Below, piece after piece: positions 529-27,773 of a DNA stretch of 32,273 bases. The notes under the pieces were generated by a model. It saw nothing but the letters and a program-made list of their open reading frames with translations. It was not told where the DNA came from and did not search any database. Position 1 is the first letter of the stretch, and each line of letters opens with the position of its first letter. Both the position numbers and the translations under genes were made by a program. The stretch is taken from NCBI GenBank assembly GCA_016793015.1, contig JAEUJD010000095.1, positions 1 through 32,273 of the forward strand. Reading direction: 5' to 3'. This stretch comes from Phycisphaerales bacterium. Lineage in GTDB: Bacteria > Planctomycetota > Phycisphaerae > Phycisphaerales > UBA1924.

Positions 529-1461
529 ATGCGCGTCGGCCTCCTTTATTCCCGCGTTCGTGTCGAAGAGCGCCTTCTCATCGAAGAACTCGAACGAAGA
601 GGCATCGAGCTCGAACTGCTCGATGTCAACAAGTTCCAGGCCGAGATCCACGATCCGACGCCTTGGCAACGCTTCGATGCAGTCTTCGAACGCTGCGTGA
701 GTCAGACGCAGGCCGTCACCGCGGTGCGCGTGCTTGAGTCGTTCGGCATTCCCTGCATCAACTCGAGCGCCGTCATCGAAGCTTGCGGCGACAAGCTCAC
801 AACTTCGCTGATTCTCGCCCGCAACGGAATCGCAACGCCTCGCGTACGCGTCGCGCTCGACCCAGAAACCGCGCTCGAAGCAATCGAGACGATGGGCTAC
901 CCGGTTGTCCTGAAGCCCGCGGTCGGCTCGTGGGGCCGGTTGCTCGCTCGGGTGAATGACCGCGATGCCGCGGAAGCGATCGTGGAACACAAGTCCACGC
1001 TCGGTTCGGTGCAGCACGGCGTGTTCTACATTCAGGAGCACGTGAACAAGCCGGGGCGCGACTTGCGGGTGTTCGTGATCGGAACCAGCCCGATCGCCGC
1101 GATCGAGCGGCGCAGCGAGCATTGGATCACCAACACGGCGCGAGGCGGACAGGCCGCGGGATTCCGCATCACGCCGGAGATCGATGATCTCTGCCGGCGC
1201 ACGGCTCGCGCAATGGCCGGACAAGCAGGCGCTCTGCTCGCGATCGACCTCCTCGAAACCGAAGATGGCCGCGCACTCGTCAGCGAAGTGAATCACACGA
1301 TGGAGTTCCGCAATTCGATCGCGACGACCGGCGTCGATATCCCGGCTCGCATGGTTGATTACGTTCTCGGAATCGCCGAACGCCGCAGCCTGAACCGTGC
1401 TTCGCAGGCCGCTGCCATCGCCCCCACTTCCTTTACATCTGGCCCTGTGGGGGTTGCATGA
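529..1461 (+). CDS. lysX: LysX/ArgX-type LysW ligase (ATP-grasp)
   Basis: RimK-family ATP-grasp enzyme of 310 aa that ligates alpha-aminoadipate (LysX) or glutamate (ArgX) to the C-terminal Glu of LysW using ATP. Visible family blocks are INSSAVIEACGDKL, the ATP-grasp strand YPVVLKPAVGSWGRL, FYIQEHVNKPGRDLRVFVIG, WITNTARGGQA and the metal-binding segment EVNHTMEFRNSIATTGVDIP. CGGAG at 519-523 supports the ATG. The stop overlaps the lysY start (ATGA). The segment after RGGQA reads AGF, unlike the ENC I remember for the Thermus LysX, so aminoadipate versus glutamate preference is open. LysX-type assignment is firm; the substrate is not. Confidence 0.9.
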   Translation: MRVGLLYSRVRVEERLLIEELERRGIELELLDVNKFQAEIHDPTPWQRFDAVFERCVSQTQAVTAVRVLESFGIPCINSSAVIEACGDKLTTSLILARNGIATPRVRVALDPETALEAIETMGYPVVLKPAVGSWGRLLARVNDRDAAEAIVEHKSTLGSVQHGVFYIQEHVNKPGRDLRVFVIGTSPIAAIERRSEHWITNTARGGQAAGFRITPEIDDLCRRTARAMAGQAGALLAIDLLETEDGRALVSEVNHTMEFRNSIATTGVDIPARMVDYVLGIAERRSLNRASQAAAIAPTSFTSGPVGVA

Positions 1462-2504
1462 GTTCGCCTTTGCGAGTTTCGATTGTCGGCGGTTCGGGCT
1501 ACGGAGGAGGCGAAGTCCTTCGCCTGCTGCTCGACCATCCGGGCGTGACTGTTTCACAGATCACCTCCCGTCAGCAAGCCGGTAACTACGTCTACAGCAC
1601 GCATCCGAATCTGCGTGGCCGCACGACGCTCCAGTTCACGACGCCGGATCAGCTTGAACCGTGCGATGTGCTGTTTCTGTGCATGCCGCACGGCGAGGCG
1701 AGTGGGCAGATCGAGCGGTACACAACGCTCGCTCACCGCGTGATCGATCTCTCGGCCGACTTCCGGCTGCGCGACGCGGCGCAGTACCAGCGCTGGTACG
1801 ACGCCCCCCACGCGCAGCCTGCGTGGCTCGATCGCTTTGTCTACGGACTTCCGGAATTGCGCCGCACGCAGCTGACCGGCGCGCGCCTCGCCAGCGGCGT
1901 GGGCTGCAATGCGACCGCGATCAACCTCGCGTTGCTTCCGCTCGCGAAGGCCGGACTCATCAAGTCGGTTGTGGCCGACCTCAAGGTCGGTTCGTCGGAA
2001 GCGGGAAACGCCTCTTCGCCGTCGAGCCATCATCCGGAGCGCTCCGGCAGCGTGCGCTCGTTCGCGCCGACCGGCCACCGGCATCAGGCAGAAGTAAAGC
2101 AGGAACTGATGGATGTCCACGGCGCGTTTGACCTGCACATGAGCATCACATCTGTGGAGTTGGTGCGCGGCGTGCTCTGCACGGCCCACATCACGCCGAC
2201 CCAGAAGCTTGAGGAGAAGGCGCTCTGGAAGCTGTTTCGCGAAACCTATCGAAGCGAGCCTTTCGTGCGTCTGGTCAAGGACCGCTCCGGCATCCACCGC
2301 TATCCCGAACCCAAGATTCTCGCGGGCACCAACTACTGCGATGTCGGTTTCGAGTGCGACCCGCACTCCGACCGCATCGTCGTCCTCTCGGCAATCGACA
2401 ACCTCATGAAGGGCGCTGCCGGCTCCGCCGTGCAGTGCATGAACCTCATGTGCGGCTTCGAAGAAACACAGGGACTCAGGTTCCCCGGCCTCCATCCGAT
2501 CTAA
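1458..2504 (+). CDS. lysY: LysY/ArgC-type LysW-aminoadipyl-phosphate reductase
   Basis: NADPH-dependent reductase of 348 aa that turns the LysW-bound acyl phosphate made by LysZ into the semialdehyde. The Rossmann motif VGGSGYGGGEVLRLLL opens the protein. The catalytic Cys is at about residue 150 in GVGCNATAIN. The block HPERSGSVRSFAPTGHRHQAE is typical of the LysY branch of the ArgC family, and the segment GTNYCDVGF lies near the C-terminus. It starts on the ATGA overlap with lysX and ends 15 bases before lysZ. The length is normal. It could act in lysine synthesis, arginine synthesis or both. Confidence 0.92.
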   Translation: MSSPLRVSIVGGSGYGGGEVLRLLLDHPGVTVSQITSRQQAGNYVYSTHPNLRGRTTLQFTTPDQLEPCDVLFLCMPHGEASGQIERYTTLAHRVIDLSADFRLRDAAQYQRWYDAPHAQPAWLDRFVYGLPELRRTQLTGARLASGVGCNATAINLALLPLAKAGLIKSVVADLKVGSSEAGNASSPSSHHPERSGSVRSFAPTGHRHQAEVKQELMDVHGAFDLHMSITSVELVRGVLCTAHITPTQKLEEKALWKLFRETYRSEPFVRLVKDRSGIHRYPEPKILAGTNYCDVGFECDPHSDRIVVLSAIDNLMKGAAGSAVQCMNLMCGFEETQGLRFPGLHPI

Positions 2505-2519
2505 ACCCCGATCACACTT

Positions 2520-3347
2520 ATGACAACCACCCATCCATACGAAGTTTCCGTCGTCAAGCTTGGCGGCAGCGTCGGCAAGAACCCCGCAGCATTCTGCCGC
2601 GACGCGGCAGAACTGCTCGGCCGAGGCCAGCGCATTGTCATCGTGCACGGCGGATCCGAGCACACCAACGAACTCGCCGAAGCGCTCGGCCATCCCTCGC
2701 AGTTCATCACCAGCCCCAGCGGACACACGAGCCGGCGCACCGACCGGCGCACGCTCGAGATCATGCAGATGGCCTGCCGCGGGCTGTTCAATCAGCAGAT
2801 TGTCGAGCAGTTGCAGCGTCATGGTGTTCGCGCCATCGGATTGTCGGGAATGGATGGAGGCATCTGGCGGGGCGAGCGCAAGGCCGCGATCCGCGCGGTC
2901 GTTGATGGACGCGTGACGGTGGTTCGTGACGATTTCACCGGCGCGGTGAGCGAAGTGAACGTTTGCTTGCTTCGCACACTTCTCGATGCGGGGCTTACCC
3001 CAGTTCTTTCGCCACCCGCCGTGAGTTTCGGCGGGGAACCGATCAATGTCGATGCAGACCGCGCCGCCGCGATGACGGCCGCGGCGCTCGGTGCCCGTAA
3101 CTTGCTCCTTCTCAGCAATGTGCCCGGACTGCTCGCCAAGTTCCCGGATGAGTCGTCTCTGATCGACCGCCTTCCGAAGTCGCAGATCGAAGCCGCACAA
3201 TCCGCGGCACAAGGCCGCATGAAGAAGAAGGTCCTCGGCGCCAGTGAAGCTCTGCAAGGCGGAGTCCGCCGCGTAGTCATCGGCGATGCACGGCGACGCA
3301 GCCCGATCACCGAAGCACTACTCGGCGTGGGAACTGTCATCGAATGA
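2520..3347 (+). CDS. lysZ: LysZ/ArgB-type LysW-aminoadipate kinase
   Basis: Amino-acid kinase of 275 aa that phosphorylates the delta/gamma carboxyl of LysW-bound aminoadipate or glutamate. The N-terminal [10 protein letters not shown] and [18 protein letters not shown] are the nucleotide and substrate loops. [17 protein letters not shown] and [10 protein letters not shown] resemble LysZ more than classical N-acetylglutamate kinases. The C-terminal half has [10 protein letters not shown] and [11 protein letters not shown], followed by a Lys-rich ATP-binding segment (MKKKVLGA). Its stop overlaps lysK by four bases (ATGA), so the two are probably translationally coupled. Confidence 0.92.
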
Positions 3348-4468
3348 GCGACACTTTGGCTCAATCCGATGCTGTCACCGTCTCCGACGCGCAAGCGACG
3401 CAGTTGCTGATCGATCTCGTCTCGACGCTAAGCCTCAGCATGCACGAGCGTGTGTGCGTGGAACTGCTCGTGACGCGAATGGCAGCACTGGGACTCGAGT
3501 CGATGGTCGATGCCAGCGGCAGCGCGGTTGGTACTCGAGGTGATTCGTCGCCCAGCACAAAGGAGATCGTCCTGCTCGGGCATATCGACACTGTGCCCGG
3601 TGTCGTACCGGTGCGGCAAGAGGGCGATGTCTTCTACGGCCGGGGCAGCGTCGATGCAAAGGGTCCGCTTGCGGCGTTCACGATCGCGGCGGCGCGTGCC
3701 TCGTTGCCTGCCGGAGTCCGCGTACGCGTAATCGGTGCGGTCGAAGAAGAGGCGGCTACTTCGAAGGGTGCTCGGTTCGCAGCAGCGAACTACCGCGTGG
3801 ACGCGTGCATCATCGGGGAGCCGAGTGGCGTCGAGGGTGTCACGCTCGGATACAAGGGCCGCTTGATCGCGAAGTTGGATCTGGAAACCGATTCGTCGCA
3901 CTCGGCTGGCCCCGAAGCAACTGCCGCCGAACTCGCATTCGAAGTCTGGTCGCGCATCCGTGCCGCGTGCGACGCTCGAACGGCTGGTGCGAAGCGGGTG
4001 TTCGATCAGGTGCAATCGCGTCTGCGCTCGATTCATTCGGATCACGACGGACTCGCCGATCGCGCAGCATTGACGATCGGGTTCCGCATTCCGCCGGGCG
4101 TGACGCCGGCGGAACTGGAAACGATCTGCGCGGAGGTCACCGCGAGCATCAACGCTCGGACGAGTTGGCACTTTGCTGGACATGAAGTAGCGCATGTAGC
4201 GGACAGAAGTAATGTGATTGCGAGAGCACTGACGGGTGCGATTCGGGCGGAACAATTGACGCCAGCGCCGAAGCTGAAGACTGGGACATCCGACATGAAT
4301 GTGGTTGGGCCGGTCTGGAATTGCCCGATCGCGGCGTATGGACCGGGCGATAGCTCGCTCGATCACACGCCCAACGAGCACATTCGCATTTCCGAATTCC
4401 TCGCGTCGATTCGAATCCTGACAAGGGCGATCGAAGGCATCGCGACAGAGCTCGCCACCTCAGAATAA
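3344..4468 (+). CDS. lysK: LysK-type LysW-lysine/ornithine hydrolase (M20 peptidase)
   Basis: Zinc or cobalt carboxypeptidase of the M20 family, 374 aa, that releases lysine (or ornithine) from LysW in the last step. Metal ligands and catalytic residues are visible in [10 protein letters not shown] (His, Asp), [15 protein letters not shown] (bridging Asp), [14 protein letters not shown] (Glu pair), IIGEPSG (Glu) and the C-terminal [11 protein letters not shown] (His). [12 protein letters not shown] is a LysK-like substrate segment. It is the last gene of the cluster; the next gene is convergent after 42 bases without an obvious terminator. The LysJ aminotransferase is absent here and must be supplied elsewhere. 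Confidence 0.9.
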
Positions 4469-20151: not shown

Positions 20152-20197
20152 TCCTCCCGCTCACGAGGCCTTACCGCTTTGTGAACGGAGCCATTTC

Positions 20198-20271
<74 letters not shown>

Positions 20272-20278
20272 CTTAAGT

Positions 20279-20311
20279 AAGTCCCGCTAAACGCGGGACT
20301 TCTGGCTTTTT
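20279..20311 (+). terminator. intrinsic terminator after tRNA-Asp
   Basis: A perfect 9-bp stem (20279-20287 with 20293-20301, loop TAAAC) is followed by five T at 20307-20311. It separates the tRNA transcript from the histidine operon leader. Confidence 0.85.
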
Positions 20312-20339
20312 GGAGTCCATCACGCCCGCCATCGTCCGC

Positions 20340-20367
20340 TTGCCTTCCGAGATTCCCCGCCTATCAA
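20340..20367 (+). promoter_or_regulatory. possible his operon promoter
   Basis: TTGCCT (20340-20345) and TATCAA (20362-20367), 16 bases apart, each match 4 of 6 consensus positions. They lie between the tRNA terminator and the leader ORF, the only space a his promoter could occupy. The predicted start site (about 20374) coincides with the GTG of the leader ORF, which would make the transcript leaderless. Confidence 0.45.
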
Positions 20368-20374
20368 TTCTCCC

Positions 20375-20434
20375 GTGAAGAACGTTCTCTCCAGCCATTT
20401 CCATCACCATCATGCCTCGAGCATGGCCGGGTGA
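20375..20434 (+). CDS. hisL: his operon leader peptide (attenuation)
   Basis: A short ORF of 19 codons from GTG to TGA reading MKNVLSSHFHHHHASSMAG. Five codons are His, four of them consecutive (20402-20413, CAT CAC CAT CAT). It lies between a terminator and hisG and is followed by a second terminator-like hairpin, just as in the classical enterobacterial HisL (a run of His codons before an attenuator). The peptide itself is expected to have no function: ribosome stalling at the His codons would report low His-tRNA. No ribosome-binding site is evident, which fits a leaderless transcript. The frame is open upstream to 20291, but no better start exists. Confidence 0.75.
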   Translation: MKNVLSSHFHHHHASSMAG

Positions 20435-20502
20435 TGGTGCGCTGAGATCGTGAAAATCAGTCCGCCAATCGACGCCGGCCCCGTGCCGGCGTCTTGTGTT
20501 TT
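20401..20502 (+). promoter_or_regulatory. his attenuator: competing hairpins and terminator
   Basis: Pause hairpin (1:2): the His-codon segment CCATCACC (20401-20408) pairs perfectly with GGTGATGG (20430-20437), or in a shifted register CACCATCA (20405-20412) with TGATGGTG (20432-20439). Antiterminator (2:3): GGCCGG (20425-20430) can pair with CCGGCC (20475-20480). Terminator (3:4): a perfect 9-bp stem, 20471-20479 with 20485-20493, loop CCCGT, followed by TTGTGTTTT (20494-20502). The 2:3 pairing would destroy the terminator. Stalling at His codons should therefore favour read-through into hisG. Pairings were found by eye; energies not computed. Confidence 0.7.
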
Positions 20503-20549
20503 CTGATCGAGAACACACGGCGGCGGGCGGTGCCGGCATGGGAGCTTCC

Positions 20550-21485
20550 ATGCCGACCAGCACATCCGTTTCGCGTTCCTCTTCATCGTCAAGTCTTGCC
20601 GCCGGCCCGTCGTCTGAAAGCACGAGCGTGCTGCCCCTCCGCCTGGCCCTCCCCAAAGGCCGCATGCAGGAAGGCATCTTCGCGCTCCTCGCGGATGCGG
20701 GCATCCGCGTGCGCGTCGGCGGTCGGGCGTATCGGCCCCAGGTTTCACTGCCGGGGATCGACGCGAAGATCTTGAAGCCGCAGAACGTGGTCGAGATGCT
20801 CCACGCCGGCTCCCGCGATCTCGGCTTTGCGGGCGCCGATTGGGTGAACGAACTCGGTGCTGAACTCGTCGAAGTGCTCGATACCGGCCTCGATTCCGTC
20901 CGTCTCGTCGCCGCGGCACCGGCCGACCTTCTCAGGGCCGGGGGGCTCCCAAATCGACGGATCGTTGTGGCGTCGGAATACGAACGAATCACCAAGCGCT
21001 GGATCGAATCGCGCGGCCTCGATGCCCAATTCGTTCGCTCGTACGGCGCGACAGAAGTGTTCCCTCCGGAAGACGCCGACTGCATCGTCGATATCGCCGC
21101 CAGTGGAGAAACGCTTCGGGCCCAGAACCTCATCGTCTTCGACGAAATCCTCCAGAGCTCGACCCGGCTTTACGCCTCACCGGGCGCGCTCGCGGACCCC
21201 GCCCGCCGCACCCAGATCGACCGCTTTTCGATGCTGCTTCAGTCGGTGCTCGAAGCCCGCCAGCGTGTCATGATCGAAGTCAATGTCGATCGAGTATCGC
21301 TCGCCCGGCTCATCGAGATTCTGCCGTGCATGCGCGAGCCCACCATCGCGACGCTGCACGGTGATGCCGGCTATGCCGTAAAGGCCGCGGTTCTCCGGAC
21401 CGAACTCCCCCGGCTGATTCCCGAGATAAAGGCCCGGGGCGGAACCGACGTTGTCGTGTCTCAACCTTCGCAGATCATCGCATGA
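20550..21485 (+). CDS. hisG: ATP phosphoribosyltransferase (long form)
   Basis: First enzyme of histidine synthesis, 311 aa, joining ATP and PRPP to phosphoribosyl-ATP. LRLALPKGRMQEGIFALL opens the catalytic domain. GSRDLGFAGADWV and DIAASGETLRAQNL (the PRPP-binding loop) follow. A C-terminal ACT-like regulatory domain (about 235-311, ATLHGDAGYAVKAAVLR) marks the long, histidine-feedback-inhibited form that needs no HisZ. The ATG at 20550 has GGGAG just upstream. ATG 20538 is also possible, and both lie in an 8-bp hairpin (20534-20541 with 20548-20555) that may mask the start. A Ser-rich N-terminal stretch precedes the core. Confidence 0.94.
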   Translation: MPTSTSVSRSSSSSSLAAGPSSESTSVLPLRLALPKGRMQEGIFALLADAGIRVRVGGRAYRPQVSLPGIDAKILKPQNVVEMLHAGSRDLGFAGADWVNELGAELVEVLDTGLDSVRLVAAAPADLLRAGGLPNRRIVVASEYERITKRWIESRGLDAQFVRSYGATEVFPPEDADCIVDIAASGETLRAQNLIVFDEILQSSTRLYASPGALADPARRTQIDRFSMLLQSVLEARQRVMIEVNVDRVSLARLIEILPCMREPTIATLHGDAGYAVKAAVLRTELPRLIPEIKARGGTDVVVSQPSQIIA

Positions 21486-23221
21486 AAACTCCCACGCTCA
21501 CTCCCATCCCGGCATTTGATGGTCAGGGCGGGCCGCTCGCGCTCCCCGCTCCGTACCGGCCCCCGACGCACGCCGGACCGATTGATCTGCGCCTCGATGC
21601 CAACGAGGGACGACCAATCGTCGATCTCTCGGCACTGTGCCTAGCCACAGAACCCGACTCGCTTCGCCGCTACCCGGATTCGTCCGGCCTGCGTGCGATG
21701 CTGGCCGAGGCTTGGGATCTGACCGCCGATCGGGTTCTGGTGACTGCGGGCGCCGACGACGCGATCGACCGCGCCTGCCGCGCATTCCTTGGCAACGGCC
21801 TCGAGATCATCGCTCCCGCGCCGACGTTCGAGATGATTCCGCGCTATGCGCAGCTCGCCGGCGCGAGCGTCATCAGTCCCCCGTGGCCGAACGGACCGTA
21901 TCCGCTCCGAGCGGTCCTTCACACGATCACCGATCGGACCGCGATGATCGCGGTCGTAACTCCCAACAACCCCACAGGCGCGGTTGCGACCGTGGACGTT
22001 GTCCGCGCCCTCGCCGGGGCAGCGCCGAGCGCGATCGTGCTCGTGGACCTGGCATACGCCGAGTTTGCCGATGAGGACTTGACCCGGGCCGCGCTGGAAA
22101 TTCCAAACGCCATCGTCCTTCGAACATTCTCAAAGGCTTTCGGACTCGCCGGCATGCGCGTCGGCTACGCGATGGGCGATGCCTCCAACATCCGCCGACT
22201 TGCCTCGGTTGGTGCCCCTTATCCCGTTTCATCGATCGGGCTGGCAGCGGCGGTGGAATCGCTTCTTGCAGCACCCTCCCGGCTTCCGGCCAGGATCGCC
22301 CGCGTCGTTGATGAGCGGGCGAATCTGGAGACGTTCCTGCGCGAGCTCGGCGGCTCGCCTATTTCGTCGCAGGGAAACTTTGTGCTCTGCAATTTCACCA
22401 ACGCAGAGTGGGTCTGGCGTGCGCTTGGCGGATTGGGCATCGCCGTGCGTCGCTTTGACGATCGACCCGGGCTCGAAAACGCGCTCCGCATCACCTGCCC
22501 GGGAGATGCGGCGGATTTCACAAGGCTGCTCGGAGCGCTCCGCAGCACGCTCAGTCCCAAAGCCCTGCTGCTCGACATCGACGGCGTGATCGCGGATGTT
22601 GGCGCTTCGTATCGCGAGGCGATCTGCCAGACGGCAGGATCTTTCGGCGTGCAAGTCACTCGCGCCGACATTTCGGCAGCAAAGGCGGAAGGCAACGCCA
22701 ACAACGATTGGGTGCTGACAAAGCGTCTGCTCGAACAAGCGGGCTTCCGCACAACACTCGCGGAAGTCACGAAGCGATTCGAATCGCTCTATCAGGGCAG
22801 TGCCGCATCACCCGGCCTGCGCGAGAACGAACGCCTGATCCCCGATCGTGCACTCCTCCAACGGTTGGCGGCAAAGCTCCCGCTCGCGGCCGTTACCGGT
22901 CGCCCCCGTGCCGATTTCGAGCGTTTGCTCGATCGCTTCGATCTGCGTTCCATCTTCTCGGCGTCCGTTTGTATGGAAGACGCGACTGCGAAGCCTGATC
23001 CCGCGCCGGTTCTGCTCGCGCTTTCCCGTTTGGGCGTATCCAACGCGTGGATGGTGGGCGACACGCCGGACGACATCCTGGCCGCTCGTGCGGCCGGCGT
23101 TGTGCCGCTGGGCGTGCTCGCGCCCGGTGACGCGAATCCGCGAACCGCTGCGGCGCTCGAGAGCGCCGGCGTCGCTCGAACTCTCTCATCTCTCTCCGCA
23201 CTGGAGGACTTGATCCCATGA
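21482..23221 (+). CDS. hisC: histidinol-phosphate aminotransferase fused to HAD phosphatase
   Basis: A 579-aa fusion. Residues 1-357 are a class I/II PLP aminotransferase of the HisC family: LRLDANEGRP, TAGADDAIDRACRAFL, VVTPNNPTGAV, the PLP lysine K218 in TFSKAFGLAGMRVGYAMG, and the C-terminal RITCPG arginine. Residues 361-579 are a HAD-family hydrolase with D365-x-D367 (LLLDIDGVIAD), TGRPRADFERLL (motif II), AKPDPAPVLLAL (motif III Lys) and VGDTPDDILAARAAG (motif IV). The HAD half probably supplies histidinol-phosphate phosphatase, otherwise missing from the operon; this is inference from context. ATGA overlaps join it to hisG and hisB. Confidence 0.9.
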   Translation: MKTPTLTPIPAFDGQGGPLALPAPYRPPTHAGPIDLRLDANEGRPIVDLSALCLATEPDSLRRYPDSSGLRAMLAEAWDLTADRVLVTAGADDAIDRACRAFLGNGLEIIAPAPTFEMIPRYAQLAGASVISPPWPNGPYPLRAVLHTITDRTAMIAVVTPNNPTGAVATVDVVRALAGAAPSAIVLVDLAYAEFADEDLTRAALEIPNAIVLRTFSKAFGLAGMRVGYAMGDASNIRRLASVGAPYPVSSIGLAAAVESLLAAPSRLPARIARVVDERANLETFLRELGGSPISSQGNFVLCNFTNAEWVWRALGGLGIAVRRFDDRPGLENALRITCPGDAADFTRLLGALRSTLSPKALLLDIDGVIADVGASYREAICQTAGSFGVQVTRADISAAKAEGNANNDWVLTKRLLEQAGFRTTLAEVTKRFESLYQGSAASPGLRENERLIPDRALLQRLAAKLPLAAVTGRPRADFERLLDRFDLRSIFSASVCMEDATAKPDPAPVLLALSRLGVSNAWMVGDTPDDILAARAAGVVPLGVLAPGDANPRTAAALESAGVARTLSSLSALEDLIP

Positions 23222-23805
23222 AACCCAGAAAAGCCAGCATCGAACGCGTCACCCGCGAAACGAATATCTCTGTTTCGATCGACCTCGATGGCGATGGACA
23301 AGCCAGCATCAAGACCGGCGTCGGCTTCCTCGATCACATGCTGACCGCGCTGACGGTGCACTCCGGCATTGATCTCGCAATCACCTGCAACGGCGATCTC
23401 CAGATCGACGATCACCACACCTGCGAAGACTGCGCACTGGCGATCGGCGAAGCCACCGACCGCGCACTCGGCGAACGCAAGGGCTTCGCCCGCTTCGGCA
23501 GCGCGTACGCGCCGCTCGATGAGTCGCTCGCCCGCGCCGTGATCGACTTCTCGGGCCGACCCTTCGCCGTGGTCGACCTCGGCCTGCGCCGCGAGATGCT
23601 CGGCGGGCTCTCCTGCGAGAACATCCCCCACTTCTTCGCATCGCTCGCGACGGCCTCGCGTGCTGCGCTGCATGTCGATGTGCTGCGAGGCGAGAACGAT
23701 CACCACCGCGCCGAAGCTGCATTCAAGGCGCTCGCGCTTGCTCTCCGCACGGCCATCGCCCGCACGGATGCTCGCTCGGTCCCCAGCACGAAGGGAGTTC
23801 TGTGA
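23218..23805 (+). CDS. hisB: imidazoleglycerol-phosphate dehydratase
   Basis: Manganese enzyme of 195 aa that dehydrates IGP to imidazole-acetol phosphate. The two similar halves carry the metal-binding His motifs GFLDHMLTAL and DDHHTCEDCALAIGEA, then NIPHFFASLA and ENDHHRAEAAFKALALALR. FGSAYAPLDESLARAVIDFSGRP is the conserved middle segment. This is the monofunctional form with no phosphatase domain, consistent with the HAD domain being fused to HisC instead. It starts on an ATGA overlap and ends on a GTGA overlap. Confidence 0.96.
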   Translation: MKPRKASIERVTRETNISVSIDLDGDGQASIKTGVGFLDHMLTALTVHSGIDLAITCNGDLQIDDHHTCEDCALAIGEATDRALGERKGFARFGSAYAPLDESLARAVIDFSGRPFAVVDLGLRREMLGGLSCENIPHFFASLATASRAALHVDVLRGENDHHRAEAAFKALALALRTAIARTDARSVPSTKGVL

Positions 23806-24443
23806 ACCGCAATGTTGTCATCATCCGGACAGGCAGCGCAAACATCGCTTCCGTTGCCGCGGCATTCACGCGCCTGGGCGTCGGCAGCACTGTTACGAGC
23901 ATTGCCGAAACGGTTCGCGATGCCGACCTCGTCGTACTTCCCGGCGTCGGAGCGTTCGGACCGGCCATGAAAGCATTGCGCGAGGACGGCCTTGACGATG
24001 CGATCAAGTCACGCCTTGAGGCCAAACTCCCGCTCCTTGCAATCTGCCTCGGTCTCCAACTCCTCTTTGAATTCAGCGAGGAAAGCCCGGGCATCCCCGG
24101 ACTGTCCATCGTCCCGGGCACAGTCACTCGGTTTCAGCCGCACCTCCGCACTCCGCAGATGGGCTGGAACGAAGTGCTTCCTTCCGAAATCAACGCTGCA
24201 TCGGGGACTCCGCCACTTCTCCGCCCGTCTTGGATGTACTTCGCAAACTCCTATTGCGTCCGTACGCCGCCGCCCGGTTGGGAGTGCGCCCTCACTCAGT
24301 ACGGCGGCAGCTTTGTCTCCGCCATGCAGAAAGGCCGCACGCTCGCCTGCCAGTTTCACCCGGAACTCTCCGGCGCTGCGGGGCTTTCGCTCATCAAACG
24401 CTGGGCGGCGCTCGCAGCCGCGAAGGAGCCAGCGCCATGCTGA
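23802..24443 (+). CDS. hisH: imidazole glycerol phosphate synthase glutaminase subunit
   Basis: Class I glutamine amidotransferase of 213 aa that feeds ammonia to HisF. LPGVGAFGPAMKAL precedes the nucleophile Cys in LLAICLGLQLLFEF, and the His/Glu pair lies in CQFHPELS. The Cys loop reads AICLG rather than the more common GICLG, and CQFHPEL replaces TQFHPEK; both are conservative. PQMGWNEV is the HisH-typical segment. GTG start on a 4-base overlap with hisB; the stop overlaps the hisF start by seven bases, suiting a one-to-one complex. Confidence 0.94.
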   Translation: MNRNVVIIRTGSANIASVAAAFTRLGVGSTVTSIAETVRDADLVVLPGVGAFGPAMKALREDGLDDAIKSRLEAKLPLLAICLGLQLLFEFSEESPGIPGLSIVPGTVTRFQPHLRTPQMGWNEVLPSEINAASGTPPLLRPSWMYFANSYCVRTPPPGWECALTQYGGSFVSAMQKGRTLACQFHPELSGAAGLSLIKRWAALAAAKEPAPC

Positions 24444-25198
24444 CCCGCCGCATCATTCCTTGCCTTGATATCGACGGTGGACGCGTCGTGAAAGGCATCC
24501 GCTTCCAGGGCCTCCGCGATTCCGGCGATCCGGCCGAACTCGCGGCACGCTATGAAGCCGAAGGCGCCGACGAGATTGCCCTCCTTGATATCTCCGCGGG
24601 CAAACAGTCTCGCATCGCCGACACCCAAACGATTGCGCGAGTCCGCGCGGTTCTCTCCATCCCGCTCACAGTCGGCGGCGGCGTGCGTTCCGCGGATGAT
24701 GCCGACCGCCTGCTCAACGCCGGCGCGGATAAGGTCGGCCTCAATACCGCTGCCGCACTCCGGCCTGAGCTTGTTTCTGAATGTGCCGAGCGCTTCGGCT
24801 CGCAATGCATCGTCGCGTCAATCGATGCCGCTCGCTCGTTGGACCCCAGGCCGACCTGGAACGTTCGCATCAAGGGAGGGGACTCGCGGACTCCCCTCGA
24901 TGCGATCGAGTGGGCTGTGCGTGCCGAGTCGCTCGGCGCGGGCGAGATCCTGCTCACCAGTTGGGATCGCGATGGCACAACCAGCGGCTTCGATCTCGAT
25001 CTTACCGCAGCCGTCGCGCACTCCGTACACGTCCCTGTCATCGCTTCCGGCGGTGCATCCAGGCCCTCGGACTTTGTCGAAGCAATTGCCGCTGGCGCAG
25101 AAGCCGTGCTCGCCGCGACGATTTTTCACGAGGCCCGCTTCTCTGTGCAGCAGATCAAGCAGTTTCTGAAGACACAAGGTGTGGAGGTTCGACTGTGA
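24437..25198 (+). CDS. hisF: imidazole glycerol phosphate synthase cyclase subunit
   Basis: A 253-aa (beta/alpha)8 enzyme that converts PRFAR plus ammonia to IGP and AICAR. The catalytic Asp near residue 11 lies in RRIIPCLDIDGGRVVKGI and the second in LLTSWDRDGTTSGFDLDL. Phosphate-binding segments are LTVGGGVRSADDA and VIASGGASRPSDF. SWDRDG replaces the commoner SMDRDG. The ATG at 24437 with GAAGGAG eight bases upstream is chosen; the frame is open further left inside hisH, but those residues are not HisF. Confidence 0.96.
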   Translation: MLTRRIIPCLDIDGGRVVKGIRFQGLRDSGDPAELAARYEAEGADEIALLDISAGKQSRIADTQTIARVRAVLSIPLTVGGGVRSADDADRLLNAGADKVGLNTAAALRPELVSECAERFGSQCIVASIDAARSLDPRPTWNVRIKGGDSRTPLDAIEWAVRAESLGAGEILLTSWDRDGTTSGFDLDLTAAVAHSVHVPVIASGGASRPSDFVEAIAAGAEAVLAATIFHEARFSVQQIKQFLKTQGVEVRL

Positions 25199-26469
25199 TC
25201 ATCCCATCGATCGATCTGATGAACGGCCAGACGGTTCAACTTGTCGGAGGAAAAGAGCACGCGCTCGATGCCGGTGATCCGATCCCGATCGCGAAGCGCT
25301 TCTCGATCGCCGGAGAGATCGCGGTCATCGATCTCGATGCAGCGCTCGGCCGGGGTTCCAACGCCGGGTTGATCCTCCCGCTGCTGCGTCTCGCGAAGTG
25401 TCGCATCGGCGGGGGTATCCGCGACGAACAAACCGCCGTAAAATGGCTCGATGCCGGCGCATCCAAGATCGTCCTGGGCACCGCAGCCAAGCCCGACCTT
25501 CTCAAACGCCTCCCGCGCGATCGAGTCATCGCGGCGCTCGACGCCGACAACGGCGAGGTCGTGGTTGAAGGCTGGCGAAGACCAACCGGCGAGACCATCC
25601 TCGACCGCATGCGAGCGCTCGAGGGCCTCGTTGGCGGATTCCTCGTCACCTTCATCGAACGAGAAGGACGCTTGTCTGGGACCAACCTGGATCTGGTCCC
25701 CGAGCTTGTGCGTGCCGCGGCGGGCGCCCGAGTCACAATCGCCGGAGGCGTGACAACCGCCGACGAAATCCGAGCGCTCGACGACCTCGGCGCCGATGCC
25801 CAGGTCGGTATGGCGCTGTACACCGGCCGCTTGGAGCTAGCCGACGCCATCACCTCGGTCGTGCGCTCCGATCGGCCAGACGGCCTGTGGCCCACCGTCG
25901 TCACCGACGAACTCGGAACAGCGCTGGGGCTTGTGTACTCCAGCAATCAGAGTGTGCGCGAAGCGATCCGCACCGGACGGGGCGTTTACCACTCCCGCAG
26001 GCGAGGCCTGTGGACCAAGGGCGAATCATCGGGCAACGTGCAGACGCTGCTGCGGATCGATCCGGATTGCGATCGCGATGCCCTGCGCTTTACCGTCCGT
26101 CAGTCGGGTCAGGGCTTTTGCCATCTCGGGCGCGAAACCTGCTGGGGCACATGCACCGGGCTCGCGCTCCTCGCCTCGGTGCTCGACAACCGCGCGGCAT
26201 CGGATGCTCCGGATTCGTACACCAAGAAACTTCTACGTTCGCCAAGTCTGCTCGCCTCGAAACTGGTTGAAGAGGCCGGTGAACTGGCCGAAGCCACCGG
26301 GCACGCCGAAGTCGTCCACGAGGCCGCCGACCTCCTTTTCTTCGCGATGACCGCGATGATGCGGTCCGGCGTGTCGCTCGCAGAAGTGAGCGCCGAACTC
26401 GATCGGCGCGGCCTGCGCCTGACCCGTCGTCCGGGCGAAGCCAAACCAGTGCAGGAGAAGCGCCCGTGA
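25195..26469 (+). CDS. hisA/hisI/hisE: HisA-HisI-HisE three-domain fusion
   Basis: A 424-aa protein joining three enzymes. Residues 1-220 are the HisA ProFAR isomerase barrel: IIPSIDLMNGQTVQLVGG, CRIGGGIRDEQTA, AALDADNGEVVVEGW and TIAGGVTTADEI, with both catalytic Asp present. Residues 229-325 are HisI, PRA-CH cyclohydrolase, with metal ligands D291/D293/D295 in DPDCDRD, C309-H310 and C316. Residues 342-415 are HisE, PRA-ATP pyrophosphatase, with E359-E360 (LVEEAGELAEA) and HEAADLLFF. One polypeptide thus covers three consecutive steps after HisG. GTGA overlaps link it to hisF and hisD. No frameshift or stop occurs at the domain joins. Confidence 0.92.
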   Translation: MIIPSIDLMNGQTVQLVGGKEHALDAGDPIPIAKRFSIAGEIAVIDLDAALGRGSNAGLILPLLRLAKCRIGGGIRDEQTAVKWLDAGASKIVLGTAAKPDLLKRLPRDRVIAALDADNGEVVVEGWRRPTGETILDRMRALEGLVGGFLVTFIEREGRLSGTNLDLVPELVRAAAGARVTIAGGVTTADEIRALDDLGADAQVGMALYTGRLELADAITSVVRSDRPDGLWPTVVTDELGTALGLVYSSNQSVREAIRTGRGVYHSRRRGLWTKGESSGNVQTLLRIDPDCDRDALRFTVRQSGQGFCHLGRETCWGTCTGLALLASVLDNRAASDAPDSYTKKLLRSPSLLASKLVEEAGELAEATGHAEVVHEAADLLFFAMTAMMRSGVSLAEVSAELDRRGLRLTRRPGEAKPVQEKRP

Positions 26470-27773
26470 CCCAAACCCGCCCGCTTCTCCGATCGATCGG
26501 CTTCGGCGATCCCGTGCCGACGCGCGGCGCTCCGCTCGACCCGGACACAGTCCGCGTCGCCGCCGAGATTCTTTCCGATGTTGATGCGGGTGGCGAAAAC
26601 GCCGTGATCGAACACGCCGTCCGCCTGGGTGACATCAACGCCGGCGAAAGCGTCGTCCGCGACCGGGCCGACTTGGCCGCTGCACTCCATCGTCTCCCCC
26701 CGCAGACACGATCGTTGCTCGAGCGAACAGCAGATCGCATCCGTGGCTTCGCATCGGCGCAGCGGGCGTGCGTCCGCGACCTCGAGTTCCCGATCCCGTC
26801 CGGATTCGCAGGGCATACATGGCTGCCGGTGTCTTCTGCGGGCTGCTATGCGCCGGGAGGCCGATTTCCGCTGCCGTCCTCGGTGCTGATGACGGCCGTC
26901 ACGGCGCGGGCGGCCGGAGTCGAACATGTTTGGGTCGCCTCGCCAAAGCCGACCGACGCCACGCTTGCCGCGGCGGCAATCGCCGGCGCGGATGGATTGC
27001 TCGCTGTCGGCGGCGCGCAGGCGATCGGCACGTTCCGGCGCGGGCTCTTCGGCGCTCCCGCATGCGACATGATCGTTGGTCCGGGCAATCGCTGGGTCAC
27101 GGCGGCAAAGCAGCTTGTCTCGGCCGATGTCGGAATCGATATGCTCGCCGGCCCCTCGGAACTGCTGGTGCTGGCCGACGCATCGGCCGATCCGAAGATC
27201 GTGGCGGCCGATCTGCTCGCGCAGGCCGAGCACGACGACGACGCCGTGCCGATGCTGGTGACAACTGACCAGAGTTTGCCTCCCAGGGTCGATGCGGAGC
27301 TGCGGAGGCAGCTCGCCACGCTACCCACGGCGCCGGTTGCAATCCGCGCGCTGGCGAACGGCTTTTCGCTCGTCTGTACCGACATGTCCGAAGCGGTTGC
27401 CTTCTGCGATCGGAGCGCACCCGAGCACCTTGAAATCCTCTGCGATCAGGCCGCGAGCATCGCGCTCCTGCTCAAAAACGCCGGCGCGATCTTCATCGGT
27501 TCGCTCAGCGCCGAGGCGCTGGGCGACTACGGAGCGGGGCCGAACCACGTGCTCCCCACTTCCGGAACCGCGCGGTTTCGTGCCGGACTTTCGGTGTTCA
27601 CGTTTCTGCGCGCCCGCACATGGCTTCGCATCACCGATCCCACCGCAGCCCACCCGCTGATGCGGGACGCCGCGGCACTGGCAAGGCTGGAGCGTCTCGA
27701 GGCGCACGCCAGATCCTCTGATACACGAATTCCGGCTCGCTCGACGCCGACAGATTCCGCCGCCAGTTCCTAG
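26466..27773 (+). CDS. hisD: histidinol dehydrogenase
   Basis: Zinc enzyme of 435 aa that makes two NAD-dependent oxidations of histidinol to histidine. Signature blocks are SSAGCYAPGGRFPLPSSVLM, MIVGPGNRWVTAAKQLV, DMLAGPSELLVLAD, LLAQAEHDDDA and AEALGDYGAGPNHVLPTSGTARF, and the conserved C-terminal His lies in RLEAHARSS. GTG start on a 4-base overlap with the HisA-I-E gene, with AGGAG eight bases upstream. Last gene of the operon; no good terminator is seen in the 113 bases that follow. Confidence 0.95.
   Translation: MTQTRPLLRSIGFGDPVPTRGAPLDPDTVRVAAEILSDVDAGGENAVIEHAVRLGDINAGESVVRDRADLAAALHRLPPQTRSLLERTADRIRGFASAQRACVRDLEFPIPSGFAGHTWLPVSSAGCYAPGGRFPLPSSVLMTAVTARAAGVEHVWVASPKPTDATLAAAAIAGADGLLAVGGAQAIGTFRRGLFGAPACDMIVGPGNRWVTAAKQLVSADVGIDMLAGPSELLVLADASADPKIVAADLLAQAEHDDDAVPMLVTTDQSLPPRVDAELRRQLATLPTAPVAIRALANGFSLVCTDMSEAVAFCDRSAPEHLEILCDQAASIALLLKNAGAIFIGSLSAEALGDYGAGPNHVLPTSGTARFRAGLSVFTFLRARTWLRITDPTAAHPLMRDAAALARLERLEAHARSSDTRIPARSTPTDSAASS

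Follow-up and report, generated by a model that had tools for sequence, protein, structure and literature searches.

A predicted his operon attenuator of conserved, compact, trp-style layout ahead of hisG in Phycisphaerales

The hisG locus and its leader

The stretch of DNA analysed here (the window, 32,273 nucleotides from a Phycisphaerales bacterium) carries a short histidine-rich ORF between a tRNA-Asp gene and hisG, with a his operon behind it that looks complete from its genes. The features of the locus are the following:

20198-20272: tRNA-Asp gene, upstream of the leader
20279-20301, plus strand: stem of the tRNA-Asp terminator, which sets the tRNA gene apart from the his transcription unit
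20375-20434, plus strand: leader peptide ORF MKNVLSSHFHHHHASSMAG, read from the sequence (GTG start at 20375, 19 codons, stop TGA at 20432-20434)
20396-20413, plus strand: regulatory His codons, strand 1 (CAT TTC CAT CAC CAT CAT), where a modelled stall leads to the antiterminator
20401-20408, plus strand: strand 1 of the 1:2 hairpin, CCATCACC, paired with 20430-20437 in the MFE structure
20425-20445, plus strand: strand 2, GGCCGGGTGATGGTGCGCTGA, which runs across the stop codon and comprises both the anti-His segment and the left side of the antiterminator
20425-20480, plus strand: predicted antiterminator hairpin (2:3), an interrupted helix of about 20 bp, from folding and covariation of its core
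20471-20493, plus strand: predicted intrinsic terminator hairpin (3:4), 9 bp, GACGCCGGC-CCCGT-GCCGGCGTC, from sequence, folding and compensatory changes
20494-20503, plus strand: U-rich tail TTGTGTTTTC, from the sequence
20550-21485, plus strand: hisG, first gene of the operon (TIGR00070, 1.1e-40; HisG_C-term, 1.8e-22)
21482-27773, plus strand: rest of the operon, namely a hisC-HAD fusion, hisB, hisH, hisF, a hisA-hisIE fusion and hisD, from NCBIfam matches; the genes overlap or abut

The start of hisG is most likely the ATG at 20550, which has GGGAG in front of it. Two of the operon's ORFs are fusions: at 21482-23221, hisC is joined to a C-terminal HAD hydrolase (TIGR01548, just above the cut-off) that is perhaps the histidinol-phosphatase, and at 25198-26469, hisA and hisIE share one ORF. 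Elsewhere in the window (529-4468), LysX-like, LysY/ArgC-like, LysZ/ArgB-like and [LysW]-lysine hydrolase-like genes lie in a row, which suggests a LysW-carrier lysine or arginine pathway; LysX and the hydrolase were matched at 1e-95 and 2e-121, respectively, and the two middle genes were judged by eye. Upstream of the genome's trpE-like and leuA-like genes, no convincing Trp-rich or Leu-rich leader, respectively, was found, and ilvB had no family match in this genome.

The leader ORF is short and rich in the amino acid that the operon makes: codons 8 and 10-13 are His, i.e., five His in six codons. CCATCACC (20401-20408) is the perfect complement of GGTGATGG, a segment at 20430-20437 that spans the stop codon. 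A second complementary pair consists of GGCCGG (20425-20430) and CCGGCC (20475-20480). The original prediction, made by reading the sequence, had described a 19-codon ORF with five His codons between the tRNA-Asp terminator and hisG, whose His codons pair perfectly with a segment at the stop, and all of these elements are found where it placed them. It had also proposed that GGCCGG pairs with the left arm of the terminator; this pairing is present, but the antiterminator comprises about 20 bp in folding rather than 6 bp. The U tract that follows the terminator is interrupted. In the window sequence, no sigma-70-type promoter was found for the leader and no clear Shine-Dalgarno sequence was seen ahead of its GTG, and translation of the leader is a prediction.

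Alternative pairings and modelled ribosome positions

None of 200 shuffles of 20375-20510 folds as well as the native sequence (z of -4.0), with component z-scores of -4.5 for the terminator, -2.9 for the antiterminator and -2.5 for the 1:2 region; conservation across relatives, presented below, is nonetheless far stronger evidence beyond chance than folding. A looser measure, pairing of the left terminator arm with anything upstream, was dropped as evidence because it hardly separates the leader from GC-rich shuffles, and a specific test of the core pairs was used in its place together with covariation.

When no ribosome is present, folding gives both the 1:2 hairpin and the terminator, and the antiterminator of the window leader has a probability of only 0.02-0.08 in the folding models. 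When the His codons are covered in a nascent RNA whose strand 4 is not yet made, this probability rises to 0.99, compared with 0.08 for the unoccupied leader; the fold with blocked His codons that the original prediction had called for thus switches to the antiterminator as anticipated. In the full-length RNA at equilibrium, the terminator beats the antiterminator even with the His codons covered, and its probability is at least 0.71 at every ribosome position. Since the terminator wins once strand 4 is present, antitermination must be kinetic.

A model ribosome of default footprint was also moved along the leader codon by codon. With the ribosome on a His codon, the antiterminator has a probability of 1.0 in every case, and this drops to 0 as soon as the last His codon has been passed; any position from the second codon through the last His permits the antiterminator as well. 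Changing the assumed footprint displaces the edge of this switch by about one codon, and the result is otherwise robust to such a change. Across the 97 leaders modelled, the median antiterminator probability is 0.997 at the first His, 0.16 without a ribosome and 0 at the stop codon, this zero being a matter of geometry because strand 2 lies inside the assumed footprint of the terminating ribosome in 97 of 97 leaders. In the model, it is the position of the ribosome on the regulatory codons that selects the antiterminator. Terminator and antiterminator are predicted to exclude each other, with one strand common to both.

These elements suggest the following course of events. RNA polymerase would start between the tRNA-Asp terminator and 20375, followed by a ribosome presumed to translate the 19-codon leader in step with transcription. 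When charged His-tRNA is scarce, the ribosome would wait on the His codons and cover strand 1, thereby freeing strand 2 (20425-20445) to pair with strand 3 (20457-20480) before strand 4 is made, and transcription would read through into hisG. When histidine is plentiful, the ribosome would reach the stop codon and cover strand 2, so that strands 3 and 4 could form the terminator, with transcripts expected to end near 20495-20503. If the leader is not translated, strands 1 and 2 would pair and the terminator would form as well. That the leader stops transcription when histidine is plentiful is strongly supported by this evidence, which is computational throughout, and we infer termination in the cell and a response to histidine from it. 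The leader also lies directly ahead of hisG of a complete his operon. It is very probable that a ribosome-mediated transcription attenuator sets the expression of the whole operon by the level of charged His-tRNA.

Conservation, covariation and distribution

The GTDB family of the window's genome comprises 163 genomes, of which 86 have a window-like hisG; for 84, the sequence ahead of the gene is long enough. An ORF carrying at least four His in seven codons precedes hisG in 75 of these 84, and three further loci (L053, L073 and L086) show a clear homologue with three His. No His-rich leader occurs on the reverse strands (0/80) or upstream of the second, distant HisG type in the class, KGSL (0/36). 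In further members of the class with window-type HisG loci, the leader is present in 10 of 11; the remaining one (L228) has a more distant KGRQQ form of HisG. The inspection of hisG upstream regions of relatives suggested by the original prediction therefore finds His-codon runs and covarying stems in nearly all of them. The leader peptide is not conserved outside the His run. What is conserved are the RNA strands GGCCGG-TGATGG, kept in alignment A1, and ACGCCGGCC.

Two types of HisG, the window-like KGRM and the distant KGSL, which share about 33% identity, coexist in the class, and the leader accompanies KGRM only. Genus g32 (G062-G065; loci L032, L026, L028 and L037) has a weakened leader with only two to four dispersed His, in an ORF of the form MTKALHQL[HQ]HCMK..., while L032 retains the GGTGATGGTG strand and the terminator; this is possibly an attenuator losing its sensor. 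In genus g2, genomes G001 and G003 lack the leader, have a divergent HisG, and no hisD was seen in them either. More broadly, histidine synthesis appears patchy in the family, with hisD in only 84 and window-like hisG in 86 of the 163 genomes (59 and 60, respectively, of the 112 that are at least 90% complete), which suggests many auxotrophs.

For the covariation scores, 91 leaders were aligned with plain MAFFT, and the shuffles used leave relatedness in place. The terminator is paired in 97.7% of cells, with exchanges between A-U and G-C and compensatory changes, and the 1:2 helix in 76%; for the two together, covariation is higher than in any of the 500 shuffles or slid controls. The antiterminator is weaker overall (60% of cells paired), with a score that still exceeds all 500 shuffles and a strong core. 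At columns 74/161 of this core, C-G is replaced by U-A in five lineages (L074, L077, L107, L129 and L154), and the same five also have U in the right arm of the terminator, so that three strands change together from C/G/C to U/A/U (Fisher p of 2e-4, not corrected for the tree). Within the family, the changed rows fall in two genera; outside it, they are two further Phycisphaerae records and a single record titled as a proteobacterium, and this scatter speaks for separate events. In L007, AACCGG lies opposite CCGGTT, whose TT is outside the terminator stem, so that covariation here extends beyond the terminator. Variation is lower in the left terminator arm, which has to pair with two partners, than in the right (columns 161/176: 0.35 versus 0.89 bits).

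The leader recurs ahead of window-type hisG in dozens of genera and several other phyla. A phylum-wide covariance search found leaders ahead of hisG in six other planctomycete families (f9, f24, f33, f36, f47 and f70), and leader-bearing records, named here by their titles and mostly metagenome bins, come from Phycisphaerae, other Planctomycetota, Acidobacteria (including Mor1 and Vicinamibacterales), Spirochaetae, Armatimonadetes, Acidiferrobacteraceae and other Proteobacteria. It was not found in the Myxococcota, Sumerlaeota and Geminicoccaceae-like alphaproteobacteria examined. Weak matches of model R1 (about 25-48 bits) in the window's own genome and the phylum were set aside; those inspected are mostly ordinary GC-rich terminators or coding sequence with no His leader. 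One locus, L197 (G409:C45:74029-74153; 35.6 bits), in a genome that has no window-type hisG, shows a leader-like ORF, MNRQQVIKCHAMHMHMPKHVCGLAPALGSR, and a terminator upstream of an unidentified gene.

In the HisG tree, phyla are interleaved on a poorly supported backbone, with at least 18 changes in leader presence as labelled, labels that are imperfect since L102 and L142 are marked as having none yet carry three-His leaders with the motif. With such a backbone and such interleaving, transfer of hisG together with its leader is suggested, and the tree can neither prove it nor exclude it. The bolder proposal that one attenuator lineage (GGCCGG-TGATGGTG on the stop codon plus the ACGCCGGCC terminator) travelled with one hisG clade through Planctomycetota, Acidobacteria, Spirochaetes, Armatimonadetes and Proteobacteria is tentative, with the chances somewhat against it. 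If true, it would represent a mobile unit of gene plus regulator and genetic evidence for transcription-translation coupling in these phyla.

Rival readings and known attenuators

A His-rich ORF followed by a hairpin could also be a small protein gene, arisen by chance or coding, for instance for a metal-binding micropeptide, with the hairpin merely a terminator. The histidine-rich peptide fits this, and GC-rich terminators like ACGCCGGC are common in these genomes, as the weak model matches indicate. Against it stand the conservation of the RNA strands rather than of the peptide beyond its His run, the covariation with strand 2 of the terminator lying between the ORF and hisG, and the finding that the sole R1 match above 36 bits in the window's own genome is the hisG locus, which together make this reading highly improbable. 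Much the same small chance is given to attenuation at the level of translation, in which the leader would govern how accessible the hisG ribosome-binding site is, and not termination. Attenuators of this kind have been published (background in PMC9413887), but the hairpin here ends at 20493 with its U-rich tail, about 46 bases ahead of the hisG GGGAG near 20540, and leaves that site free. Slighter still is the prospect that histidine is sensed at this site by other means, either by a T-box reading uncharged tRNA-His or by a protein repressor, with the ORF incidental. T-boxes and HisR do control his genes in Firmicutes (PMC9413887); neither, however, explains the conserved runs of His codons, and an Rfam scan found no T-box or other riboswitch in the window at gathering score, nor in 20180-20700 at E up to 10.

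Ribosome-mediated transcription attenuation, the reading preferred here, bears on more than the his operon. Ribosome-operated attenuation requires that RNA polymerase be followed closely by a translating ribosome, and the cell organisation of planctomycetes has long been debated. An attenuator conserved across dozens of planctomycete genera predicts transcription-translation coupling in the phylum, which is testable. It would also provide a his regulator for lineages where none was found described, one that tracks the type of HisG and not the host phylum, and the leader is a ready RNA family absent from Rfam.

Published his-type leader peptides are from Proteobacteria and Firmicutes (PMC2965389; PMC9413887), while attenuators for other amino acids are known from Actinobacteria (PMC1262725), and in a paper on leader genes, Planctomycetes appear only in connection with a distance statistic (PMC4833913). 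The original prediction had called this logic well established in Proteobacteria, which is too narrow, as candidate his attenuators have been published for Firmicutes (PMC2965389; PMC9413887). That it knew of no description for this type of organism agrees with the open-access literature searched, in which no earlier description of a his attenuator was found for Planctomycetota, nor of this switch for the other leader-bearing phyla; on this scope, novelty for the phylum is provisional.

Its label of a HisL-like leader holds for the logic and not for family membership. As in enterobacterial hisL (RF00514, His_leader), a run of His codons in a short leader ORF ahead of hisG is combined with an antiterminator and an intrinsic terminator as alternatives. 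RF00514, which scores E. coli hisL at 131 bits against a gathering score of 49 bits, does not match the window at E values as high as 10, nor any of 18 loci including relatives; conversely, model R1 reaches only 23.6 bits on E. coli. The E. coli his leader follows a six-strand scheme, with its pairing strands well downstream of the stop codon, whereas the window leader makes do with four and has its anti-His strand overlapping the stop codon. The Firmicutes candidates share His-codon leader peptides and a terminator with an antiterminator, ahead of his operons or of hisS/hisZ; they are known from the Bacillus cereus group, other bacilli, Peptostreptococcaceae/Lutispora and Erysipelotrichales, with no planctomycete mentioned, and are set apart from the window leader by their description (PMC2965389; PMC9413887). 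In layout, the leader is closest to the trp-type attenuators of E. coli, Corynebacterium and Streptomyces, whose four-strand arrangement of 1:2, 2:3 and 3:4 pairings, with the regulatory codons in strand 1, is found here as well; it differs from them in that it would sense histidine, lies ahead of hisG, has strand 2 on the stop codon and belongs to another lineage. The his attenuator predicted here is, in our assessment, real, and combines a conserved and compact form with this trp-style layout.
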